64,000 nt of DNA. Source: Epinephelus fuscoguttatus (taxonomy: Eukaryota > Chordata > Actinopteri > Perciformes > Serranidae). The position numbers and the translations under genes were made by a program. Each line of letters begins with the position of its first letter. The first letter of the stretch is position 1. The notes beneath the pieces were generated by a model, which had not been told where the DNA came from, made no database searches, and worked only from the letters and a program-made list of their open reading frames with translations. Where the stretch lies: contig NC_064770.1 of the NCBI RefSeq assembly GCF_011397635.1, forward strand, positions 25,341,603-25,405,602, written 5' to 3'. Of the stretch, positions 16,601 through 53,765 are shown one piece after another.

Positions 16601-19310
16601 GCCTGTCAGGTGTTTTAGAGCTGCAGTCATTATGGTCGTGGTTATTAATAGATTTCTTTGATAGAGATAGAGTAAGAGGCAAAGAGAGGATGGGGTTCTA
16701 CAGCTGGATTTGCCTGCACACTCATCATGAAACCGGATTTACTGCCTGAGGTTACGCAAGCGCCGCTTGAGTGCACTCGTTTTATGTGCATGTTCATTAT
16801 TTCTTTATGCTAAATAGCTTCATGTGCAAAACACAGTTTTAAACAGAGCATGTTATTGTAGGGTCTTTTTGCACCAAGGAAATCTGTTTCATCAGAATGT
16901 TTTCTTTCATTTCCCTGTTCGCAAAAATAGATGGCTGAAAGCAGCACCCGTGACGTGCTCTGACTATCTTAGCTTCGGCCTTTACAGGAGCGTATTCTGA
17001 GCCAAATGTGATTATATATTTTGAGAGACTCTGAGCTGATTGCTATGCAGTGTCACTCCTTAAGAGGCATACCACTCTGCCAGAGTCACACGTGGCCAGC
17101 AATCAGGGATAAAGCGTGACATGTCTGGTGGCACTTCTCTGACCTGAGGTCACAGCCAAAGCGTCTTGAGCGTTCCGCTGCAGTGCCCCTCTGACGGCCC
17201 GAGGGGTCAGCCTGTACAGGAGGAGGGGGGAGGGCACAAGATGGTAGGAGGATGGTCGTAAGCTGAGCACTGATTGGATGGTCTGTTTTAATTTCCGATA
17301 GGCTTCAGCTTCCTGTAAACTTTAATGTCATCTGTATTATAGTGTGTGGGCTCGCATATTTTAGCTGTAGCTCCTTTTAAAGGGGCACTACAGCAACTTT
17401 ACTCATAAAGGTCAGTCTGTTCGTCATGCTCAGTTTGTGAAAGCAGTTGTGATGTGATAATGACCCCTCTGGCTCTGGAGGAGAAAATAACCCTGATGAT
17501 GTCATAGTGATGTCATCAGGGTGATCTAATCTTGGGCTTGAGACACGTATTTGTAACATAAAACTCTGCATAACAAAATGGGGGAAGGAGTTTGACAGAC
17601 AATAGCATTTGCAGACAGGGAGGGTTAAAAGACATCGATGCAAGTGGAAAGCATTGTGGGAAATGTAGTATCTAGTGTTACGGAACATGATATGTACTAG
17701 TGACTAAAAATCAGGATATGTCAGCCTCTGTTGCACTGATTTTTATCTCTTGTCAGCCTCCCAACAACTGCAATATTAAAATGGTCTAATTTTTATTTAT
17801 CATTTTTAAGACATCCCAGAATTCCAATCATCATTATATTTTGGTCTTGACAGTAAGATTTTGATGAAAATAGGTGAAATGTTAAAGCTGTTGTTTTGTC
17901 TCTTTCATCAAGGTGCCCTCATTTGCCAGAAGATCCAGTATACCTGCAGGTTTCGAGGAATCATCTCAGGATGCAGAGGCCAGCCTCAAGTCCGATCCCG
18001 TCCCATTCCAGCGTCCCCAGCCTCAACAGTACCAGCTCAACAGCAAGAAGCACCACCAGTACCAGCCCAGCAGCCAGGAGGTCCCCGCTGACCAGCCAGC
18101 CAACGGCAAGAAGAAGTTCATCTACCAGCTCAACAGCAAGAAGCACCACCACTACGAGCCTGACCCCAACATGTACGACGCGCAGGCTTCCAGGCTCAAG
18201 GAGGTGGTCAAAGTTCAGGAGCCGGCCAGTAAACCGACAAATCCTGGCTGGAACTTACCGCTGGCTCTGCAGCAGAAATGGGTTCGGGACAAAGACACAG
18301 GCTGCTTGAGCAAAGTCAAAGAGTTGGCGGTGGAGGTGAGGAAACCGGCTGTTAAAGACGCTGAGAGCGAACATGCCCTTAAACCCAACCCTAAAGACGC
18401 AACCCTACCTAGTGCTATTAGCAGCAAAATGAAGATAATCAAGAACAAAAACAAGAATGGACGTATTGTTATAGTCATGAGCAAATATATGGACAGCAAC
18501 AAGGTTCACGGAGCAAAGGGTAAACACGGGGAATCTTCGGGCGAAGTGAAACCCCAGAACACCAAACCGTCAGAGAACAATCCAGCGCACACGACCAAAA
18601 TGGTGGAGCACCCGGAGAACGGTATCCCCAAAGAGCTCTGTAACGGCAGCTCCCCCCCTGCCGCCGAGCATCCTATAAAGTGTTCCCCAAAGGACAGACA
18701 TTTCTCCAAACCATCGCCAAGCACAGCAGAGGAATACAACACCGAAGTTGCTCGTGGTCAGGCTGATTTACCGGATGATCTACCCCTTCAGTTAACCGCT
18801 AGCTCGCCCTTGACATCCTGGGCTGTTGACACCAACATCCCGACCCCTACATCTGTCGACCAGATCAGGATCCCTTCTTTCCCCAACGACCGCAAGCGAA
18901 AGCTGTCAGGTCCCGTGGAGGACAGGAGCGCCTCTAAAACCTACCTGACTTGTAGAAGCTTCAGCATCCCCAGCACTGTGGTCACACCACCTCAGGACAA
19001 ACCTATGGACCTCCACTGCAGTGGACCACGCCACAGCAGCACATGTACATACGAGGTTATGGACTCTGGCAGCCAGGAGGAGCCGATGGATCTCAGCTGC
19101 CCAAAGACTAAGAAGCAGGTGGAGCCGGAAATAGAGCCCGAGCCTGCCGTCACAAACACGCCTCCCGTCGTAGAAGACACTCAGACACCTGCAGAGAAAT
19201 CAAAAGAAGCACCTGTTAAAAAAATCTCCCCTTTTATGGGAAATATCATAATCACTGACATCACGACAAACAGTCTCACCGTCACCTTCAAGGAATATGT
19301 GTCTTTTTGA
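12889..19310 (+). CDS. cbx4: Chromobox protein 4 (Polycomb group, PRC1 subunit), 5 coding exons
   Basis: Exons: 12889-12957, 13058-13101, 13783-13848, 16426-16492, 17913-19310, all joined with GT-AG introns and kept phase, giving 547 aa (human CBX4 is about 560). CBX4 is a canonical PRC1 subunit that reads H3K27me3 and also acts as a SUMO E3 ligase in the nucleus (established). Residues 10-60 form the chromodomain with aromatic cage F11, W32 and W35. YRKRGPKPK (about 70-78) is the AT-hook-like motif. The CBX4-specific YQLNSKKHH motif occurs twice (about 122 and 153). [11 protein letters not shown] (about 265-275) matches SUMO-interacting motif 1. The C-terminal Pc box (about 520-547; GNIIITD then LTVTFKEYV) binds RING1. 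Two CtBP-type motifs, PMDLHC (446) and PMDLSC (473), replace the single human one. The ATG is the first codon of the conserved MELPA start. The last exon holds 85% of the protein. CBX4 rather than CBX8 or CBX2 follows from YQLNSKKHH and the FKEYV end. Confidence 0.95.
13102..13782 (+). other. cbx4 intron 2, with a short GT run
   Basis: The intron begins GTAAGT and ends TTCTCTCTGCAG style (TCTCTGCAG). It contains GT runs near 13240-13258 and 13649-13694. No additional exon is seen. Confidence 0.7.
13649..13694. repeat. Pure GT microsatellite in cbx4 intron 2
   Basis: About 23 uninterrupted GT units end 88 bases before cbx4 exon 3. Such pure runs are highly polymorphic, and this one lies close to the 3' splice site. 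Confidence 0.95.
13956..13988. repeat. TCC trinucleotide run
   Basis: About ten consecutive CTC/TCC units lie just inside cbx4 intron 3. It is non-coding. Confidence 0.85.
16020..16260. promoter_or_regulatory. Candidate intronic enhancer in cbx4 intron 3
   Basis: Within 240 bases are CCTAATTAGAG (16023), CCTTAATTGAATT (16109), an exact octamer ATGCAAAT (16171-16178), CTTTGCAG (16192) and TGACCTTGA (16249-16257). The last is the consensus ERR/SF-1 half-site. The segment is non-repetitive and 170 bases before exon 4. It resembles a conserved non-coding element, but conservation was not tested. Confidence 0.4.
17370..17690. repeat. Interspersed repeat in cbx4 intron 4 with a hyphenated palindrome
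   Basis: The block starts TTTTAAAGGGGCACTACAG and ends AGCATTGTGGGAAATGTAG, text I associate with a widespread fish repeat. Inside, ACCCTGATGA (17490-17499) is the exact inverted complement of TCATCAGGGT (17513-17522), with near-complementarity continuing into the 13-base spacer. No coding capacity is visible. Confidence 0.5.
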
Positions 19311-20825: not shown

Positions 20826-22227
20826 GTTGTTGCATTGATATGTGGTGGGTTTGGTTGGTGTGTGGATATATTGAACGTTCTATTGGCAGTCTTTTCACAG
20901 TTGTTTCTAGCATTCCAGTGGAAGATTTATGTACGATTGTTCTAGCCCCGCAGTTGTTATGAAGCCCTTCTGCTCATATGGAGAAAGAACGGAATAATAA
21001 ACACTAGAAACACTTACTTACTTGTGAACCATGAATAGAAAAACAGATCACGTTGCATAATCACAAACGATCCTGCACAAAGGGCCCTCTGTATTGCATA
21101 ACAGCACCAGCCGCTTGTATTATTAAAACATTACCCCTGCATTATTTTTCTACTGCAGCTCGACTCCGAGCAGGAATGTAAACACACAACATAACTGCAG
21201 GGAAGGCTGTTATGCAATTCTTAGATTTTATCAAGAAGAAAGGCGTCATGTGGAGCAAGTATTTGGCCGTCACATGGCTTGTAAGCGTGTGTGTGCCGTC
21301 CCAACACAATGTAGCAGTGAAGCGCATCGGTTATATGACATTTAAATATGATGTGTCTGCACTGGGCTTTGTGGCATTTCCAGATCATTGGGTAAGTTGC
21401 TATAAATGGCTGTGTTGCCTCGTAAAAAGGCCTGTGTCACCATGACACAGCAGTTCTCCCTACACTGTTATCATACAGTGAAATTTAGAGGCGAGTTCAG
21501 GCCTACAGAGGCACAGATAGACATGCAAACTTCGGATACACGTGTGCACACGTCAGCCTTAACGAATGGACTTTAATAGGCTTTTCTCACAGCAGACATT
21601 TTGACATGTCAAAGCAGGAAAAGCACAGGTGTTGCTAATAACACTGACGATGGCTCTGTTCTCAAGTGCACCAATGACATTGATAGTGAGCCAGCATGCA
21701 AGGATCCTGAAATCAAAGCAGCTTAATTGAATATAGCTATCATATATATATATTATTTACACCTGTTTTGCTCCTGCTGTGACTTGTCAAAAAGGCCTCA
21801 TGCTGACTTTGCATGACATTTCCAAATGCTGCAGACCTCTCTGTCCCTGTCTTGTAAGTATTACCTGTATTGTAATTATATTATACTGGCTATTTACACA
21901 CACAACATGTATTGCTCATCCGTCTGTCCAGGGAGAGGGAGCTCTCCTCAGCTGATCTCTCTGACACTTCCTCCATCTTTTTCCTTATTACAGGGGTGTT
22001 TGGGGAGATTCTCCTTATCCTAAGTGGTGGTCTAAGGACAGAGGGTGTTGTGTGCTGCACAAAATGGAGGTAAATTTGTGATCTGTGATACTGGGCTGTG
22101 TAAATAAAACTGATTTGACTTAAGGAGGATCATTTAAGGGCCTGTAAGCCTGGACAGACGTGAAAATGTGAGCAGAAATTGTTGTTCTACTGGAATCTCA
22201 AGCGTGTAAAAAGGTTAACTCTTGGAG

Positions 22228-26944: not shown

Positions 26945-29398
26945 ATGGAGCTCTCGGCTGTTGGTGAGAGCGTCTTCGCAGCCGAGTCCATCATTAAACG
27001 GCGAATCAGACGGGTATTCGCTGCTTTTTCTGTGGCCCACAGGCTGTGTCTCCACACCTATTACGCAACCATTTGTTTGTGCTGCGCCTACAGGCAACCC
27101 AATGATAACCTGAATGTATTACGGATCTGTTTTGCAGGGTCGCTGGGAATATCTCGTGAAATGGAAGGGCTGGTCTCAGAAGTGAGTATTGTAGCGGAGG
27201 CTGTGAAGGACAGCGCTCCATCCTGGCCGCTCGCACAACTGCACCACCTCACATTATCGTTTATTCAGCTTGTGGATGTTTTTTTAATCATATCATCTGC
27301 TGTGTTTGTGCCGTAGTGCAGTCTGTACGTTTGGTGGCTCCTGTCATGGTGTTGTAAATGCCCGAGCTTCAGCCCGCCAGGATCTATTAAACTAGCTTTA
27401 GCAAATGGCTGGGTTCACCATGCGTCACTGTCCGCTACGTAGTCTGTAATTGCAGCTCACGCAGCGAGATCGCTTTGATTAAAAAAAAGTATTCAACCGC
27501 GTGTGTGCGCGTTGACATGTGATCCGCCCAACGTGTGGTAACAAACACCTCTCCTCTTCGTTGTTTGGACGCAGGTACAGCACCTGGGAGCCGGAGGAAA
27601 ACATTCTGGACGCACGGCTCTTCGCTGCCTTCGAGGAGAGGTGAGGGTTTGACAGCGCAGCAGTAGGCCTCTCTGCTCCGCCGCGCATTCTGTGCCACAA
27701 ACATGTTCATTTAAATAACATGCTAAGCTCACATTTGGACCCTTTAATCGTATATTTTCAGAAAGAAAGTGATAATAAGTGTCAGTGGAGCGAGCTCATC
27801 CAGCTTCCACTTTAGATAGTTGCAATGTGTGAAGCCATTTTCTCATCCCAAACAGCTTATCTGCTTTATTCTGACACGTTTTTCATTCGAATTTAACTTA
27901 CTTCCAATCAAAAAAAGTGCATTGAAACAAGTAAAACTTACTCCATCTGCAGAGTTTGTCATTTGCTTGGCAAATTATATTTTCCGATTTAATTAGAGCC
28001 CAAATAAAAATATATTCGTTAATGTGTTGTGATGAATCGTTTAATGATTTTCATTCGTCAGGGAGCGCGAAAGGGAGCTGTTCGGTCCGAAGAAGAGGGG
28101 ACCCAAACCCGAGACATTTCTCTTAAAGGTTGGTGAATCATTTGATGCGCATTTCTCCGTGTTTCATTTGATCTCGCCGCCTTTCTGAGGCGATACAGCT
28201 GATGAGTAATTTCCTTGATCTGAAAACTACAGCCGTGTTAATTTTGAAACTGTTGGAGCGTGACTCACAAACTAGTGGAATGACAGCTGCAGCCCAACAG
28301 AAAATCTGTCATTCACCCAAATGGTTTTCATGAAGTTAAGTTGGGTACAGTGTCTACACATTTTACGCATCCTTAATATATTATATGAAGTGTTATAGTT
28401 TTATGTATTGGCATGCATTCTTTAAAAGAAGCCAAGCAGCTTCTGGACGAGGCCTCGAACGCCCAGTGTAACCAAACAGATCTGCAGCTGCTTCTCTTAA
28501 ACCTTTAAATTTCCTCAGGAGAATTCAGATGTTCATTTCTTCTCGTAAACGTTATTTGCTCTGTCCTCAGGCCAAAGCCAAAGCCAAAGAAAAGACGTAT
28601 GAATTTAGAAGAGAGGCTCCCAGAGGGATCCAGGTTTCCTATCCCATCCCGGAGCCTATCATAACACCGAGGGCCCGGGAGGGTTTACGCACTGTGGTTC
28701 CCACCATCTTCCCCCCGAGCGCGGTCAACAGAGGGGAGAGCGTCCACGTCCGACCACCGGAGCCAGAGAGGAGGCCCAGACCGACTCCATCAGCTGCTCT
28801 TACAGTCCATGAAGCCGCCCGGTTCCCCAAAAAGAGAGGGCGCAAACCGAAGCTGCATTTGCATTATGATAAAGATGACGGAGAGCCGGACACCAAACGG
28901 AGCAGGTCACTGGCGGAGCCGGTGTCACACGGTTTGTCCAGCATGTCCCGACGCTTGCTTCATCATGGGGAGACGTCAGATCACAGCCTCATCCAGCTGA
29001 CCAGGAGGTTTCAGGAGGAGACCACAATTACACCCAAACACAGCAGCGAGCAGAGACACGCGGGGTTGTCTTACAGCTGCGCGTTCAACCCAGATGTGCG
29101 TAAAAGCGATCACGGGGGACACAGGACTAAATGTTTGAGCAGGATGGCTATTCCTCGGCCTAGCAGCTCTGCAGAGCATCAGAGGCATCGCATGAAGGAG
29201 TGCTGTCCGGCCCGGGAGCAGCCTGCTGACATCTCCACACAGTCCATCCATGAGCAGTCCACGCGACCAACCTCGACCTGGACCCCCAATTTCACCAATC
29301 TGGACACTGTGACCGTTACAGATGTCACCATGAACTTCTTGACAGTCACCATCAGAGAGAGCAGCACGGAGAAAGGCTTTTTCAGAGAGAAAAGATGA
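26945..29398 (+). CDS. cbx8: Chromobox protein 8 (Polycomb group, PRC1 subunit), 5 coding exons
   Basis: Exons: 26945-27013, 27138-27181, 27575-27640, 28062-28128, 28571-29398, in phase with GT-AG introns, 357 aa (human CBX8 is 389). CBX8 is a PRC1 chromodomain subunit that targets H3K27me3 and DNA in the nucleus (established). The start [14 protein letters not shown], chromodomain residues 10-60 with cage F11, W32, W35, and [15 protein letters not shown] match CBX8. [20 protein letters not shown] (about 68-87) is the CBX8 AT-hook-like segment. A second basic patch, KKRGRKPK, occurs near residue 175. The C-terminal Pc box (about 323-357; [15 protein letters not shown], ending GFFREKR) binds RING1. 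The long Arg/Glu/Asp repeat of mammalian CBX8 is absent, which explains the shorter length. Teleosts can carry two co-orthologs (8a/8b); which one this is cannot be told here. Introns are short (124-442 bp). Confidence 0.95.
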
Positions 29399-41746: not shown

Positions 41747-42626
41747 TTAAAGGTCCAGTGTGTAGGACTTGGGGACATACTAACAGAAAGGGAATATAAT
41801 ATCATATGGTGGTGTGGTGGTCAGCACTCTCGCCTCACAGCAAGAGGGTTGCCGGTTCGATCCCGGGTGTGGGAGCCCTTCTGTGCGAAGTTGGCATGTT
41901 CTCCCCATATCAGTGTGGGTTTTCTCCATTTTTTCCCTTTCCCTAGGTACTCCGGCTTCCTCCCACAGTCCAAAGACATGCAGATTGGGGACTAGGTTAA
42001 TTGATAACTCTAAATTGACCGTAGGTGTGAATGTGAGCATGAATGGTTGTCTGTCTCTATGTGTCAGCCCTGTGATAGTCTGGTGACCTGTCCAGGGTGT
42101 ACCCTGCCTCTCGCCCGATGTAGCTGGGATAGGCTCCAGCCCCCCCGCGACCCTCAAGAGGATGAAGCGGTTAGAAGATGAATGAATGAATGAATGAATG
42201 AATATTTTCTTAAGTGTATAATCACCTGAAAATAAGAATCGTATTGGAATTTTCTAACCTCAGAATGGGACATTTATGTCTACATATGGAGCGGATCCTC
42301 TCCTACAGAGATTGGCATGTTGCACTGCTATGTTTTTACAGTAGTCCAGAGCAGGCAAACCAAACACTGGCTCTAGATAGGGCCACAACAGTTTTTGCAT
42401 TTTCCCATTGGCCATCATAGTCAGCAGCCCCTTCGTTATCCAGTATTTTATCCTGTTTTAATCTCCTGGTCCATTTGTTTTTTAGAGAATATGACCTGGT
42501 AAAAACCTCCTGAACAATGAACACTGAGGGAAATTTAACCACGTAAAGTTTCGGCTGGTTGCAATTTGCAATCCTCACCACTAGATGCCACCAAATCAAC
42601 CTAAATCTTACACAGTGGGACTTTAA
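41747..42626. mobile_element. TIR element (880 bp) hosting a tRNA-headed SINE
   Basis: The left terminal repeat begins TTAAAGGTCCAGTGTGTAGG. The right terminal repeat (42603-42626) is its inverted form, matching 19 of 24 positions. The body is interrupted by a SINE at 41807-42206. The right half contains GGTTGCAATTTGCAATCC then CACTAGATGCCACC, typical of this fish repeat family as I remember it. Confidence 0.7.
41807..42206 (+). mobile_element. tRNA-derived SINE with GAAT tail
   Basis: The head GGTGGTGTGGTGGTCAGCAC resembles a Pol III A box, and CCGGTTCGATCCCGG contains an exact B box (GGTTCGATCCC). The body includes CATGTTCTCCCC, GTACTCCGGCTTCCTCCCAC and GGGATAGGCTCCAGC, hallmarks of a SINE-like repeat abundant in fish genomes. 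It ends in six GAAT units (42177-42203). A head-only copy lies at 46425-46539. Confidence 0.75.
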
Positions 42627-42798: not shown

Positions 42799-44320
42799 TC
42801 ATTTCAGAATGAGTCGAATCTTCCTGTCTCCAAGCAGGAGTCTGCGAAAACAGGAAAACAATTAGTTAAGTTGTTCAGTCTAATACAGTAACACAATCCT
42901 TTACAGTATAATATGTATATGTCGCGTTCCCCTACCGAACCAGTACGGCAGCTATTAGACCTCCTGCGATGGGTCCCACCCAGTAGACCCAGTGGTAAAC
43001 CCAGTAGTTGCTCACTACGGCCGGACCGAAGGCTCTGGCTGGGTTCATACAGGTGCCAGATACATCTCCACTGATAAAACAAACAGGTAAGAGGTGATCA
43101 TGTGAGCAGAGAACAATGATATCTATGTTAATTTTAATCCTACAGCAGTGTATGCTTCTGCCGTACTTGCATCACTGCTGCAGCATAAATATGACATCCC
43201 ACAGTCATATGTGATATAGCAATAATAATGCAGATAAATGTGATATTTAAATTTTTTTTTTACTTGAGCAAACCTGTAAAATATCATGAATGCATCCCTA
43301 CATGATATTAAGTTACACACAAACAGACACACTCAATTTCTCATCTGTAGACTCACATTTCTTCTGTTTTACTCACCCAGCCAAGATGTTGAAGATAACA
43401 GTACAGCCCACCAAAAATGGCACCATGGGACTTTTGGTCTTGGTGTTGACTGCCCCCAGCAGCAGCACCATGGTGATTAGGCACGTCATGGCGACCTCTC
43501 CAAACACAGCTCTTCCTACTTCGCTGTCTTCGTGCAGCACAGCAAACGCAGCTCCGTGGGCTTTGGCGAAGTTCTCCCCTGAGGTCATTGCCTGTTGGCA
43601 TCAGCCATGATTCAGGGCTTTTTTATGCACATACAAGAAAGCCTAAGGTGAATGTTTTTATTGACACAAAAATGAGGCAGGTTCACCTTCGCCATCGCAG
43701 CTCCGAGCACCCCTCCAACCAACTGACATACAAGATATGGGGCCACCATGTTCAGCTCCATCCCTCCACATAGATAGATGGCCAGAGTGAATGGTGGGTT
43801 GAAATGGGATCCACTGGAGAGGCAAAAATCAAGACAAAAAATCAGTTCTGCAGAATTTTAAGCAATGTTGTCTTAAAATGTAGAACTTCTTAAATGGGCA
43901 TTATGAATATGAGATATAAAAGTGCAACATGGATTGAATAATTAAGAATAGAATAATAGAATCCTATTTATAAAGAAAAAAAAATCTATATGTAAATAAT
44001 TATTGTCCAGACAGTAAGACAACACTTGGCACAATAAACACTGAAGGTGATCCTCACCTGATCTCAGCCATACAAGTCACCATGACGGCTATAACCAGAC
44101 CGTGCACCAGAGCTGGCTGAAGCCTCCCTGTAGACTCCACATTCTCTATGACCGACACACAGCCGATGAAAACGAAGAAAGTAGTTCCCACCAGCTCACC
44201 CAGACAAGGCTGAAATACCCTCTCAAATGTGCTAAGAGGTCTGGCTGGAGGTGGCTTTGACTCTGAAGTCATAAGAGACGCCCCAACTTCTGCCATCTCC
44301 ATCATCTTCCCATCAGCCAT
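42799..44320 (-). CDS. aqp8: Aquaporin-8 water/ammonia/peroxide channel, 5 coding exons
   Basis: Exons on the minus strand: 44320-44058, 43813-43687, 43591-43377, 43070-42936, 42841-42799; in phase, 260 aa (human AQP8 is 261). AQP8 is a six-helix membrane channel passing water, ammonia and hydrogen peroxide in plasma and inner mitochondrial membranes (established). Seen: [19 protein letters not shown] (helix 1), LQPALVHGL with H73 (helix 2, selectivity-filter histidine), [12 protein letters not shown] (loop B, residues 88-99), [11 protein letters not shown] and ILAGG (helix 5, I199), [15 protein letters not shown] (loop E, C209 and R214), ending [10 protein letters not shown]. Loop B reads NPP where human AQP8 has NPA; loop E is NPA. 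The start is the first ATG of the conserved-length N-terminus. Teleosts carry several aqp8 genes (8aa, 8ab, 8b); the subtype is not settled. The neighbour arhgap17 matches human 16p12. Confidence 0.93.
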
Positions 44321-45286
44321 GAGTCTTCAGTGAGGTCTGGTTGTAAGCGTTGAGGATGTAACACTGAGCCTGCTAACCTGAGGTCTGCATACAAATATCT
44401 CTGTGCCTGCTAATCACACGGACTTTGGTGTGTGAGGTTAGAGTCTGCGGAGAGTTGCTCCACTGACCTGCCCTGAACTCACTGACTCTTTTTCTTATTT
44501 ATCCAAGATAGCTGGCTCATCCGCTCATTACAGGGACGAACTTGCAATGTGTAAATTCATGCATTTGCAGATGAGTTTGTGAAATGCGCCGTGGACTGTT
44601 TAAAAATCAGCCAGTTTTGGTCAATGATTGCAACTTAATAATTTACATCGAAGTTACATAAACATGTTTTCAGGAGCTACTTTTCCATGGCGGGGTCGAA
44701 GCAGGAGGGACTATGGCAACAAAAGCAGACCTTTTGTTATATGTTTGGCTTGACTGATTTATCTGGTATTGTCATATAGATACAGCAGTACTTCCATATT
44801 GTTTAAGTCAAGATTTTTTAAATCTTAATAATTATAAAACTGTGACAAAAATGTATTGGACAATGATGCAAGCCAGAAGACTTACTTAACTAAGCAAAGT
44901 CTTTAACCTGTTTTAAATTAGGAAAAATATCACTGAGTTACCTTAAACTGTATAATCTCATGACAGAATAGATGTTACTCACTAATTTATCATTTCCCAA
45001 AAGTTGTTCACACATTAGCCAAAGAATGCCACAAAAGAGATGGTGCAGACTTTGCGCACTGAGTGGTAATACAGTGTGCATGGTGACCCAAAACACACAG
45101 TGATTTTGAATCCTTCTCTGTTCTCGCAGGATGGTTTGTGCCTGTTCACAGGATGTATGATGATAACAAGAACGGGACAATTGCTAATGGATGCTCAAGG
45201 ATTTTTGCACAGTGGTTTAGATCCACCAGTGGGTGGAGGTATATTGAATGAAAAAGCCCTCAGAATCACTGAAGCTGTACCAAGTT
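44321..45286. other. Upstream flank of aqp8
   Basis: It contains the probable promoter and 5' leader of aqp8 (read leftwards) and then unique A/T-rich DNA up to the satellite. No TATA box is obvious and no other gene is seen. Confidence 0.5.
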
Positions 45287-45868
45287 GATACTATACTATG
45301 ACATTTTTGACATACTATACTATGACTTTTTATGACATTCTATACGCTGACTTTTTTCGACATACTATACTATGACGTTTTTGACATACTATACTATAAC
45401 TATTTTACAACATATTATACTATGATGTTTTATGACATTATATACTCTGACTTTTTTTGACATACTATACTTGATTATTTTGACATAATATACTATGACT
45501 TTTTTGACAAACTATACTATGACTTTTTTGACATAATATACTATGACTTTTTTGACATACTATACTTTGATTATTTTGACATACTATACTATGACTATTT
45601 AATGACATATTATACTATGACTTTTTATGACATTCTATAGTATGACTTTTTTGACATACTATAACCTTTTTACAACATATTATACTATGACTTTTTTGAC
45701 ATACTATAACCTTTTTACAACATATTATACTATGACTTTTTTGACATACTATAACCTTTTTACAACATATTATACTATGACTTTTTTTGACATACTATAC
45801 TATGACTTTTTGATATACTATACTATGACTTTTCAGGACATTCTACACTATGACTTTTTTGACAGCGC
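45287..45868 (+). repeat. Tandem array A, about 26-bp units, inverted relative to array B
   Basis: Units read roughly TGACATACTATACTATGACT followed by a short T-run, about 22 copies with point and length variation (units with TACAACATATTA and TATGACATTCTA variants). The same text appears as reverse complement in the arrays right of 46266. There is no gene; repeated peptide frames (TYYTMTF) are consequences of the repeat. Confidence 0.9.
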
Positions 45869-45884
45869 TGATCAAACATGACTC

Positions 45885-46265
45885 AAGATCTTCAGGTCAA
45901 AGGTTCGATCATTATCCAGGGCAGGTGAATTTTAACGTAAAACAACCAAATGAAAGGTTAAATGCACCTGGAAACATGTGCATATGTGTAGGCAGGATAA
46001 CTCGGTGGGTAAGGCTACTGACCCCAGTGTGGGAGACTGGGGTTCACATCCATTACTACCTCACGAATATGCTACGGCACAGGATGGGTGAATTTTAAAC
46101 TCCAACACCCAAATAAAAAAGGTTAAAGGCTTCTGGAGACATGTGCATATATGTAGGCAGGATAACACAGTGGTTTAGGCTACTGACCTCAGTGTGGGAA
46201 TCTGGGGTTCACATCCATTACTACCTCACAGATATGCTACAGCATAGGATGGGTAAATTTTAAAC
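45885..46265 (+). repeat. Tandem tRNA-like units, 165-bp period, between the two arrays
   Basis: GGCAGGATAAC starts at 45991 and again at 46156. Each is followed by an A-box-like stretch (CTCGGTGGGTAAGGC or CACAGTGGTTTAGGC) and 45-50 bases later by a B-box-like GGGGTTCACATCC, then CATTACTACCTCAC and a GAATTTTAA-containing tail. A partial third unit (AGGTTCGATCATTA) opens the block at 45900. This fits a tRNA-derived SINE duplicated in tandem. No cloverleaf complete enough for a functional tRNA was found. Confidence 0.65.
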
Positions 46266-46424
46266 TCCAATAGTAGTATGTCAAAAAGTCATAGTATAGT
46301 ATGTCAAAAAAGTCAGAGTATAAAATGTCTTAAAAAAGTCATAGAATAGTATGTCAAAATAATCATAGTATAGCGTGACATCCAAAATATCATAAAAAAT
46401 TATAGTATAGTATAACATCCAAAA
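46266..46424 (+). repeat. Start of tandem array B, about 26-bp units
   Basis: Units read AGTATAGTATGTC, an A-run and GTCATAGTAT, the reverse complement of array A. The block is interrupted at 46425 by a SINE head. Confidence 0.85.
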
Positions 46425-46539
46425 GGGCGGCACGGTGGTGTGGTGGTTAGCACTCTCGCCTCACAGCAAGAGGGTTGCCGGGTCGATCCCAGGCGTGGGA
46501 GCCCTTCTGTGCAGAGTTTGCATGTTCTCCCCGTGTCAG
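46425..46539 (+). mobile_element. Head-only SINE fragment inside tandem array B
   Basis: It starts GGCGGCACGGTGGTGTGGTG and matches the 5' 115 bases of the SINE at 41807, ending at CATGTTCTCCCC then GTGTCAG. CATCCAAAA flanks it on both sides (46416-46424 and 46540-46548). That may be a target duplication, but the array itself repeats this word. The 3' half and tail are missing. Confidence 0.75.
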
Positions 46540-49500
46540 CATCCAAAAAATGATAAAAAAGGTCATAGTATAGTATAATGTACAAAATATCATGAAAAAG
46601 TCAAAGTATAGTATGACATCTAAAATATGATAAAAAAAAAGTCATAGCATAGTATGACATCCAAAATATGATAAAAAAAAAAGTCATATTATAGTATGAC
46701 ATCCAAATTATGATAAAAAAGTCATAGTATAGTATGACATCCAAAATATGATAAAAAAAAAGTCATATTATAGTATGACATCCAAAATATGATAAAAAAA
46801 AGTCATAGTATAGTATGGCATCCAAAATTTCATAAAAAGACATAGTATAGTATGACATCCAAAATATGATAAAAAAAAGTCATAGTATAGTATGACATCC
46901 AAAATATGATAAAAAAAAGTCATAGTATAGTATGGCATCCAAAATTTCATAAAAAGACATAGTATAGTATGACATCCAAAATATGATAAAAAAAAGTCAT
47001 AGTATAGTATGACATCTAAAATATGATAAAAAAAAAAGTCATAGCATAGTATGACATCCAAAATATGATAAAAAAAAGTCATATTATAGTATGACATCCA
47101 AATTATGATAAAAAAGTCATAGTATAGTATGACATCCAAAATATGATAAAAAAAAAGTCATAGTATAGTATGACATCCAAAATATGATAAAAAAAAAAGT
47201 CATATTATAGTATGACATCCAAAATATGATAAAAAAAAGTCATAGTATAGTATGGCATCCAAAATTTCATAAAAAGACATAGTATAGTATGACATCCAAA
47301 ATATGATAAAAAAAAGTCATAGTATAGTATGACATCCAAAATATGATAAAAAAGTCATATTATAGTATGACATCCAAAATATGATAAAAAAGTCATATTA
47401 TAGTATGACATCCAAAATTTCATAAAAAAAAAAGTCATAGTATAGTATGATGTCCAAAATATGCTAAAAAAGTCATAGTATAGTATGACGTCCAAAATAT
47501 CATGAAAAAGAGTCATAGTATAGTATGACATCCAAAATATCATAAAAAAGTCATAGTATAGTATGACGTCCAAAATATCATGAAAAAGAGTCATAGTATA
47601 GTATGACATCCAAAATATCATAAAAAAGTCATAGTATAGTATGACGTCCAAAATATCATGAAAAAGAGTCATAGTATAGTATGACATCCAAAATATCATA
47701 AAAAAGTCATAGTATAGCATGACGTCCAAAATATCATAGAAAAGTCATAGTATAGTATGACATCCAAAATATCATAAAAAAGTCATAGTATAGTATGACA
47801 TCCAAAATATCATAGAAAAGTCATAGTATAGCATGACAACCAAAATATCATAAAAAAGTCATAGTATAGCATGACATCCAAAATATCATAAAAAAGTCAT
47901 AGTATAGCATGACATCCAAAATATCATAGAAAAGTCATAGTATAGTATGACATCCAAAATATCATAGAAAAGTCATAGTATAGTATGACAACCAAAATAT
48001 CATAAAAAAGTCATAGTATAGTATGACGTCCAAAATATCATGAAAAAGAGTCATAGTATAGTATGACATCCAAAATATGCTAAAAAAAAGTCATAGTATA
48101 GCATGACGTCCAAAATATACTAAAAAAGTCATAGTATAGTATGACATCTAAAATATCATATGACATCCAAAATATGCTAAAAAAGTCATAGTATAGTATG
48201 ACGTCCAAAATATACTAAAAAAGTCATAGTATAGTATGACATCTAAAATATCATATGACATCCAAAATATGCTAAAAAAGTCATAGTATAGCATGACGTC
48301 CAAAATATACTAAAAAAGTCAAAGTATAGTATGACATCTAAAATATCATATGACATCCAAAATATGCTAAAAAAGTCATAGTATAGTATGACATCCAAAA
48401 TATCATAAAAAAGTCATAGCATAGTATGACATCCAAAATATCATATGACATCCAAAATATGCTAAAAAAGTCATAGTATAGTATGACATCCAAAATATCA
48501 TATGACATCCAAAATATGCTAAAAAAGTCATAGCATAGTATGACATCCAAAATATCATATGACATCCAAAATATGCTAAAAAAGTCATAGTATAGTATGA
48601 CATCCAAAATATCATAAAAAAGTCATAGTATAGCATGACATCCAAAATATACTAAAGCATGACATCCAAAATATACTAAAAAAGTCATAGTATATAGTAT
48701 GACATCTAAAATATCATATGACATCCAAAATATGATAAAAAAGTCATAGTATAGTATGACATCCAAAATATCATAAAAAAGTCATAGCATAGTATGACAT
48801 CTAAAATATCATATGACATCCAAAATATGCTAAAAAGTCATAGTATAGTATGACATCCAAAATATGCTAAAAAGTCATAGTATAGTATGACATCTAAAAT
48901 ATCATAAAAAAGTCATAGCATAGTATGACATCTAAAATATCATATGACATCCAAAATATCATAAAAAAGTCATAGTATAGTATGACATCCAAAATATCAT
49001 AAAAAAGTCATAGTATAGCATGACATCCAAAATATACTAAAAAAGTCATAGTATAGTATGACATCTAAAATATCATATGACATCAAGTCATAGTATAGTA
49101 TGACATCCAAAATATGCTAAAAAAAAGTCATAGTATAGTATGACATCCAAAATATGCTAAAAAAGTCATAGTATAGTATGACATCCAAAATATCATAAAA
49201 AAGTCATAGCATAGTATGACATCCAAAATATCATATGACATCCAAAATATGCTAAAAAAGTCATAGTATAGTATGACATCCAAAATATGCTAAAAAAGTC
49301 ATAGTATAGTATGACATCTAAAATATACTAAAAAAGTCATAGTATAGTATGACATCTAAAATATCATATGACATCCAAAATATGATAAAAAAGTCATAGT
49401 ATAGTATGACATCCAAAATATCATAAAAAAGTCATAGTATAGCATGACATCCAAAATATAGTAAAAAAGTCATAGTATAGTATGACATCCAAAATATCAT

Positions 49501-50108
49501 AAAAAAGTCATAGTATAGTATGACATCTAAAATATACTAAAAAAGTCATAGTATAGTATGACATCTAAAATATCATATGACATCCAAAATATGATAAAAA
49601 AGTCATAGTATAGTATGACATCCAAAATATGCTAAAAAAAAAAAGTCATAGTATAGTATGACATCCAAAATATCATAAAAAAGTCATAGTATAGTATGGC
49701 GTCCAAAATATGCTAAAAAAGTCATAGTATAGTATGACATCCAAAATATGCTAAAAAAGTCATAGTATAGTATGACATCCAAAATATCATAAAAAAGTCA
49801 TAGTATAGCATGACATCCAAAATATCATAAAAAAGTCATAGTATAGTATGACATCCAAAATATCATAAAAAAGTCATAGTATAGCATGACATCCAAAATA
49901 TGCTAAAAAAGTCATAGTATAGTATGACATCCAAAATATGCTAAAAAAGTCATAGTATAGTATGACATCCAAAATATGCTAAAAAAAAGTCATAGTATAG
50001 TATGACATCCAAAATATCATAAAAAAGTCATAGTATAGTATGGCGTCCAAAATATCATAAAAAAGTCATAGTATAGTATAACGTCCAAAATATCATAAAA
50101 AAGTCATA
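46540..50108 (+). repeat. Tandem array B main block, about 38-bp units
   Basis: Units read CATAGTATAGTATGACATCC, then AAAATAT, a variable CAT/GAT/GCT step and an A-run plus GT; roughly 90 copies. Early copies carry GATAAAAAAAA, later ones CATAAAAAA or GCTAAAAAA. In about 48130-49110 a short internal duplication (CATATGACATCC) makes a roughly 57-bp variant unit that alternates with the basic one, i.e. higher-order structure. Minus-strand frames of 80-124 aa through it are repeat translations, not genes. Confidence 0.93.
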
Positions 50109-51092
50109 GTATGGTATGTCAAAAAAGTCAGAGTATAGAATGTCATAAAAAAATCCTAGTATAGTATGTCGAAAAAGTCAGAGTATAGAATGTCATAAAA
50201 AAATCCTAGTATAGTATGTCGAAAAATTCATAGTATAGTATGTCAAAAAAAAGTCATCGTATAGAAGGTCATAAAAAAATCATAGTATAGTATGTCAAAA
50301 AAGTCAGAGTATAGAATGTCATAAAAAAAATCCTAGTATAGTATGTCGAAAAATTCATAGTATAGTATGTCAAAAAAAGTCATAGTATAGAAGGTCATAA
50401 AAAAAATCATAGTATAGTATGTCAAAAAAGTCAGAGTATAGAATGTCATAAAAAAATCCTAGTATAGTATGTCGAAAAATTCATAGTATAGTATGTCAAA
50501 AAAAGTCATAGTATAGAAGGTCATAAAAAAATCCTAGTATAGTATGTCGAAAAATTCATAGTATAGTATGTCAAAAAAATTCATAGTATAGAAGGTCATA
50601 AAAAAATCATAGTATAGTATGTCAAAAAAGTCAGAGTATAGAATGTCATAAAAAAATCCTAGTATAGTATGTCGAAAAATTCATAGTATAGTATGTCAAA
50701 AAAGTCATAGTATAGAAGGTCATAAAAAAAATCATAGTATAGTATGTCAAAAAAGTCAGAGTGTAGAATGTCATAAAAAAGTCATTGTATAGTTTGTCGA
50801 ATAAGTCAGTATAGAATGTCATAAAAAGTCGTAGTATAATGTGTCATAAATAAGCAATACTATAGTTTTTCAAAAAAGTCATAGTATAGTATGTCAGAAA
50901 AACTCATAGTATAGTATGTCAAAAAAAGTCATAGTATAGTATGTCAGAAAAACTCATAGTATAGAATGTCATAAAAAGTCATAGTATAATATATCATAAA
51001 TAAGTCATAGTATAGTATGTCGAAAAAGTCATAGTATAATATGTCATTAAAAGGTCATAGTATAGTATGTCAAAAAAGTCATAGTATAGTGT
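50109..51092 (+). repeat. Tandem array B terminal block, about 26-bp units with a roughly 130-bp higher-order period
   Basis: Here CATCC is lost and units read AGTATAGTATGTC plus an A-run. The word GTCAGAGTATAGAATGTC recurs at spacings near 130 or 200 bases, together with AATCCTAGTATAG and GTATAGAAGGTC variants, showing that groups of about five units were amplified together. The array fades out at about 51092. Confidence 0.9.
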
Positions 51093-51295
51093 GTGCTGTA
51101 CCTCAGCAGAAGCCATTACTGCACTGCTGGAGGTAGGTACAATCAATGTCAAACAATGTCTCTCCATTTCATTACCTCTAAATGCATTTGGCTTCAAAGT
51201 GGAAAACTAGAATGTAATATGCCCTTCTCCTAGGCTCTGTCGTCGTATATGTATAAGTATGTTATAAAAAAGTCAGTGTGTGCACTTTTCGTGTG

Positions 51296-51301
51296 TGGCC
51301 C

Positions 51302-51334
<33 letters not shown>

Positions 51335-51494
51335 TTTATTTATAAATCCCAATATCACAAATAACAATTCGCCTCAGAGGGCTTTACAGCATACGACATC
51401 CCTCTGTCCTTAGGGCCCTCGCAGCGGATAAGGGACAGGAACATCAACAGGAAACATGATAAATTAATAGTAATCCATATGACAACATGATACA

Positions 51495-53214: not shown

Positions 53215-53765
53215 TCAAGCTAACACTATAACCAGGAAGAAACTCGGTCTGTTATGGTGAAGAGGGAGCTGAGCCAGAAGGCGAAGCTTTCGATTTACTG
53301 GTCCATCTACGTCCCAACCCTCACCTATGGTCATGAGCTCTGGGTAGTGACTGGAGGGATGAGATCGCGGATACAAGCAGCGGAAATGATCTTCTTCCCT
53401 GGGGTGGCTGGGCTCAGCCTTAGAGATAGGGTGAGGAGCTCGGACGTCTGAAGGGAGCTCGGAGTAGAGCCGCTGCTCCTTCGCTTTGAAAGGCGTCAGT
53501 TGAGGTGGTTTGGGCATCTGATCAGGATGCCTCCTGGGCGGCTCCTGCTGGAGGTGTCCCAGGCACGTCCCACTGGTAGGAGGCCCCAGGGCAGACCCAG
53601 AACACACTAGAGGGATTACATATCTTGTCTGGCCTGGGAACTCCTCGGGGTCCCCCAGGAGGAGCTGGAAAGCGTTGCTGAGGATGTCTGGGGTGCTTTG
53701 CTCGGCCTGCTGCCCCCGCGACCTGGCTCCGGATAAGCGGATGAAAATGGATGAATGGATGGATA
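53215..53765 (+). mobile_element. LINE 3' fragment: reverse-transcriptase C-terminal tail, broken
   Basis: In + frame the text reads VKRELSQKAKLSIYWSIYVP, then LTYGHELWVVT and AGLSLRDRVRSSDV before a stop (TGA at 53449-53451). Later fragments (WFGHLIRMPPG, then GRPRT) appear with further stops. This is the C-terminal end of a fish non-LTR retrotransposon. It finishes in GGATGAATGGATGGAT, a typical 3' microsatellite tail. At least two stops break the frame, so it is a dead 5'-truncated copy. The family cannot be named safely. Confidence 0.8.

Follow-up and report, generated by a model that had tools for sequence, protein, structure and literature searches.

A pair of opposed tandem arrays related to the Lca_38 satellite in Epinephelus fuscoguttatus: a possible foldback DNA element

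Introduction

Tetris of Drosophila virilis was described as a non-coding foldback element with long inverted arms that contain internal tandem repeats and enclose a middle domain, and the repeats of its arms fed the TIR-220 satellite arrays, as set out in the sections of PMC4079207 devoted to it. Three complete copies with duplications of 8-9 bp were reported, and membership in the Mutator superfamily was suggested by its authors (PMC4079207). In Xenopus, miDNA4 and Xstir are satellites borne by miniature inverted-repeat transposable elements, according to their treatment in a review (PMC12628747). Here, a pair of tandem arrays in opposite orientation is described from the serranid fish Epinephelus fuscoguttatus. 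The pair occupies positions 45282-51094 of a stretch of 64,000 nucleotides (assembly GCF_011397635.1, contig NC_064770.1, positions 25,341,603 to 25,405,602 of the forward strand), which is referred to as the window and whose numbering is used throughout. Its units resemble Lca_38, a pericentromeric tandem repeat of the Asian seabass, Lates calcarifer, and the pair may represent a single insertion of a Tetris-like foldback element.

The likeness to Tetris is one of plan: tandem units make up inverted arms around a centre, an 8-bp repeat stands at the outer edges, and one arm has grown into a satellite array. Tetris, as its description presents it, also has a flanking domain without repeats on the outside and units of about 220 bp, whereas the units of the window measure 24-38 bp and reach almost to the edge. 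With miDNA4 and Xstir, the locus shares the plan of tandem repeats in a vertebrate DNA element that give rise to satellite arrays; in those elements, as the review summarizes them, the tandem repeat is internal, whereas it forms the inverted arms in the window (PMC12628747). The units are similar in sequence to Lca_38, and one of the arrays has a period of 38 bp as well. In contrast to the pericentromeric tandem repeat described in PMC4833346, where the part of the paper dealing with Lca_38 mentions no inverted pair, the window has two opposite arrays in gene-bearing DNA, with 24/26-bp units at their outer ends. None of the matches listed in the literature on foldback elements, satellites, and fish concerned a teleost foldback element by its title.

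Two arrays of one repeat family in opposite orientation

Arrays A (45288-45868) and B (46266-51094) belonged to the same repeat family and ran in opposite orientation around a centre of approximately 400 bp. The anatomy of the pair, as derived mainly from Tandem Repeats Finder (TRF) and blastn, was as follows.

45274-45281, plus strand: left 8-bp direct repeat GCTGTACC, a candidate target-site duplication
45282-45868, minus strand: array A, the short arm, of ~24/26-bp units, one stretch of them in a 45/90-bp higher-order arrangement (first TRF base 45288)
45869-46265, no strand: centre, with 2.1 direct copies of a 165-bp unit (TRF, blastn)
46266-46373, plus strand: inner block of array B, ~24-bp units (TRF 46274-46373; start read from the sequence)
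46374-50118, plus strand: expanded 38-bp block of array B, unit AAAAAAGTCATAGTATAGTATGACATCCAAAATATCAT, matching Lca_38 (TRF 46540-50118; first 38-type motif at 46377)
46425-46539, plus strand: GC-rich interspersed repeat inside array B, tRNA-like by eye, with the 9-bp CATCCAAAA on both sides (sequence, blastn)
50119-51094, plus strand: outer block of array B, 24/26-bp units as ~50-bp dimers, the best match of array A (TRF, blastn, tiles)
51095-51102, plus strand: right 8-bp direct repeat GCTGTACC (exact-match search with chance control)

Three comparisons agreed on the opposite orientation. In a blastn search of A against B (E values up to 1e-3), all 94 matches were on the minus strand, and the top match covered positions 9-583 of A at 81.3% over 604 columns. 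When 100-bp tiles were assigned by strand score, all 5 tiles counted in A ran in one sense, all 45 counted in B ran in the opposite sense, and four edge tiles outside this count (45788 and 46288-46488) also agreed in sense. Among the 570 12-mers of A, 304 were present in B as the reverse complement and none was present directly. A strand count that allowed three mismatches gave 8 matches in A and 127 in B for one sense, and 20 and 99, respectively, for the other; it was set aside in favor of the tiles and 12-mers because the near-palindromic core of the unit matches either strand.

A preliminary description of this DNA had proposed a large imperfect inverted repeat made of a single satellite family, and this was borne out by blastn, tiles, and 12-mers, none of which placed the two arrays in one orientation, and TRF, which that description had named as a check, recovered A and B as separate tandem arrays. 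It gave array B as ~38-bp or ~26-bp units; the array is not uniform, with units of ~24/26 bp at both ends, 38-bp units between them, and a GC-rich insert.

Unit structure of the arrays

A 24-bp unit in 24 copies was identified by TRF in array A (45288-45864), where spacings (n = 20) were 23-26 bp except for three of 45 bp. For array B, TRF returned an inner block of 24-bp units (46274-46373), a long block of 94 copies of a 38-bp unit (46540-50118), and an outer block with 24/50/75-bp units (50097-51094). The commonest spacing in B was 38 bp (45 of 128), with spacings of ~24/26 bp at both ends, while the middle of the array included variants of 37-42 and 57 bp besides the 38-bp units.

By eye, the 38-bp unit of the TRF consensus consists of the 24-bp unit with one base changed, followed by the 14 bp ATCCAAAATATCAT. 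This 38-type motif was confined to B, as it was not found in array A with up to four substitutions in its 14 bases, and both outer arms were built of ~24/26-bp units. The first 38-type motif (46377) lies upstream of the 115-bp GC-rich insert. A second copy of the insert repeat was found at 41808-41913, with 91.5% identity over 106 bp, and the CATCCAAAA that flanks the insert also belongs to the satellite unit.

Similarity to the Lca_38 satellite

A literature search with short stretches of the repeat identified a single fish paper containing it, the Asian seabass genome report (PMC4833346). Its account of Lca_38 gives a printed 38-base oligo for fluorescence in situ hybridization (FISH) and a pericentromeric signal (PMC4833346). 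The comparison was made with this printed oligo. Against the 38-bp unit of the window, 28 of 32 columns were identical, with a forward score of 48 (maximum of 30 in 300 shuffles). The oligo scored 56 in the forward sense against array B (maximum of 33 in 60 shuffles) and 49 in the reverse sense against array A (maximum of 32 in 300 shuffles), while the best score in the window outside the arrays was 32. The period of ~38 bp expected of Lca_38 was found in B, with periods of ~24/26 bp in array A and at both ends of B.

Since the units match the Lca_38 oligo above the shuffle controls, the satellite family is one already known, and the earlier view that it could not be placed in a named class is overturned. 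The chief alternative to a foldback element is an ordinary dispersed satellite. A single array of the Lca_38 family may have had a segment inverted, or may have been copied back in the opposite sense after a break by fold-back repair, with the centre as captured filler and the 8-bp repeat arising by chance or by fill-in of a staggered break, all without a transposase. The family was published as a plain tandem repeat in the part of PMC4833346 that treats it, which favors this account, and we consider it a serious possibility although short of an even one.

Direct repeat at the outer edges

An 8-bp direct repeat bounding the pair, which was absent from the preliminary description, is new here. 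The sequence GCTGTACC was the only exact direct match of at least 7 bases between 45240-45330 and 51050-51140; its right copy adjoins the last TRF base, and its left copy lies six bases from the first. With this repeat, the insertion of an element becomes a possible explanation of the pair. Matches of at least 8 bases occurred in 191 of 20,000 random position pairs outside the pair with equal slack (10), in 104 of 12,600 pairs spaced as in the actual locus, and in 85 of 20,000 random pairs with a slack of 6. The repeat is hence unlikely yet not beyond chance, at ~0.4-1%. The left flank did not recur elsewhere in the window.

Assembly is difficult where short AT-rich units are repeated in tandem, and the inverted appearance may in principle reflect a collapsed or misjoined satellite region. 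We consider such an artefact improbable, as the variants of the unit occupy ordered domains and the 8-bp repeat stands at both outer edges, neither of which a false join is expected to make.

The disruption of a gene, or the origin of a new intron, was also considered. When the flanks were joined at GCTGTACC (45116-45281 and 51103-51133), one frame stayed open across the junction, and the edges appeared splice-like by eye. This candidate was dropped: two versions of the joined frame had no Pfam family, and the best PDB match had an E value of 1.1. A peptide of another frame matched only DUF2824 (E 0.2), below the cut-off.

Register of the arms

Start positions within the outer 1 kb of B were scored against the outermost stretch of A. 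The start nearest the outer edge ranked first among 33, 31, 29, and 27 starts at lengths of 150, 200, 250, and 300 bp, respectively, and at 200 bp it also ranked first among the 122 starts of the entire array. Over these lengths, the outer ends of the arms appear to be in partial register.

Foldback element or inverted satellite

The pair is interpreted as one insertion of a non-autonomous, Tetris-like foldback DNA element known from a single copy. We give this reading approximately even odds, given the single copy and the mismatch of the terminal bases. The long inverted tandem-repeat arms around a middle domain that characterize foldback elements were present, and a target-site duplication of 8-10 bp may have its counterpart in the exact 8-bp repeat, with the chance rate given above. 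The arms did not have matching terminal bases.

Several observations weigh against an insertion of this kind, beginning with that chance rate of about 0.4-1% for the direct repeat. The arms differ from each other over their last 4-8 bases, with AAGTTGAT in one and ACAC in the other ahead of the first common ACTATACTATGAC. The outer register was not the best at all lengths: over all B starts it ranked 4 of 125 at 80 bp and 5 of 123 at 120 bp, and when only the outer 1 kb of B was considered it ranked 8 of 35 at 100 bp and 2 of 23 at 400 bp. Among A starts, its ranks at 100, 150, 200, 250, 300, and 400 bp were 4/17, 4/15, 2/14, 1/13, 1/11, and 1/7. Another pair of starts outscored it at every one of these lengths, with overall ranks of 15/595, 14/495, 2/434, 2/377, 2/297, and 2/161 in the same order. 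The inner ends were out of register (25/127 at 60 bp, 19/126 at 75 bp, and 25/126 at 90 bp). The centre was single-copy within the window, as blastn returned no second copy. In addition, a transposase family was absent from the ten frames of at least 60 amino acids in or overlapping 45282-51094, shorter frames not having been searched; nine of the ten had no Pfam family, and one, a repeat-derived frame, had a zona pellucida match below the cut-off (E 0.0068).

An inverted Lca_38-family satellite would account for inner ends and terminal bases that are not mirrored and for other register pairs that score slightly higher. The very unequal lengths of the arms (0.58 kb for A vs 4.83 kb for B) and the chance rate of the 8-bp repeat also favor it. 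In contrast, an inversion within an array predicts neither a direct repeat at the outer edges nor a best outer register at 150-300 bp.

If the pair is a foldback element, we infer transposition, an order of events, and a mechanism of amplification as follows. The ancestral element would have had two terminal inverted arms of ~24/26-bp tandem units and a centre of ~400 bp. It would have been inserted by a transposase supplied from elsewhere, which left an 8-bp target duplication, after which the lengths of the arms would have changed independently. Amplification of a 38-bp derivative (the 24-bp unit plus 14 bp) to about 94 copies may then have followed in the right arm, probably via unequal exchange or replication slippage, and the GC-rich short repeat would have landed in the 38-bp block afterwards.

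A further proposal, which we regard as doubtful, is that Lca_38, as a percomorph pericentromeric satellite, was born in the inverted arms of a foldback transposon, and that the locus preserves an intermediate stage, with one arm already turned into satellite. If this is true, the locus, an element with a target duplication that lies in gene-bearing DNA, would parallel Tetris in a vertebrate. The origin of satellites is an old question, and a mobile element at this site would link a pericentromeric satellite already named in fish with a transposon. It would also provide a relative order at one site, namely the 24/26-bp arms, the amplification of the 38-bp unit, and the later insertion, which can be checked in long-read percomorph assemblies. 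If the pair is merely an inverted satellite, the locus is a routine one that may serve as a test case for assembly or for fragile sites.

Public contig collections of viruses and prokaryotes were scanned with the 20-mer AAAAGTCATAGTATAGTATG. It had no matches in the viral contigs and one in the prokaryotic genome contigs, in a metagenome-assembled genome of Bacteroidia, which was judged to be a chance match.

Predicted folding and RNA pairing

The predicted fold energies were -1.0 kcal/mol for the 24-bp unit, -2.3 kcal/mol for the 38-bp unit, and -4.8 kcal/mol for the 18-base core GTCATAGTATAGTATGAC alone. The near-palindrome noted in the preliminary description is weak by these values. Its suggestion of long-range hairpins or double-stranded RNA (dsRNA) holds on paper: the predicted pairing of A with the outer 601 bp of B as RNA was -564.8 kcal/mol, compared with -67.3 and -110.5 kcal/mol for the two alone. 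Fragility and dsRNA production are possible.

A functional role, in which the arms would be transcribed and give rise to small RNAs acting on a neighboring aquaporin-like gene or silencing the satellite family, is considered very improbable. It would draw on the strong predicted pairing of the arms and on the proximity of that gene: a distance of 962 bp separates the left edge of the pair (45282), on the upstream side, from the first methionine of the minus-strand aquaporin-like frame, computed to be at 44320. Other Asian seabass repeats are present in the transcriptome of that species, as far as the relevant part of PMC4110674 describes it. However, no Rfam match reached the gathering score in the window, and tandem arms rich in AT would presumably pair equally well whatever their origin.

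The 165-bp unit of the centre (45924-46270) was found by TRF in 2.1 copies with 86% matches. Tentatively viewed as a structured RNA, the centre had no Rfam family at the gathering score, and a relaxed scan of 45860-46545 returned three matches, all below that score. As a tRNA, it was likewise rejected, with none found by ARAGORN in its bacterial setting. The 165-bp unit has tRNA-promoter-like letters. Six B-box-like 9-mers with one mismatch occurred in the centre, and they prove nothing.

Surroundings of the pair

Ten stretches of the window were scanned against Pfam, and four of them had no match. On the minus strand at 42932-44326, three of four aquaporin-type frames matched MIP; they belong to a gene that we take to be aqp8. 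Two frames on the plus strand (17886-19307 and 28472-29395) carried the CBX C-terminal motif of the Polycomb chromobox type. The window was considered gene-bearing DNA because of the aquaporin-family frames and the two CBX-type frames. Another two frames, which had no Pfam match, may be meteorin-like, and the frame at 53224-53451 matched DUF792 below the cut-off (E 0.0085). To the right of the pair, at 51302-51413, a (TCAA)n run is followed by a segment (51328-51413) that resembles 22032-22115 on the other strand (74.7%) and is perhaps a retroelement end.

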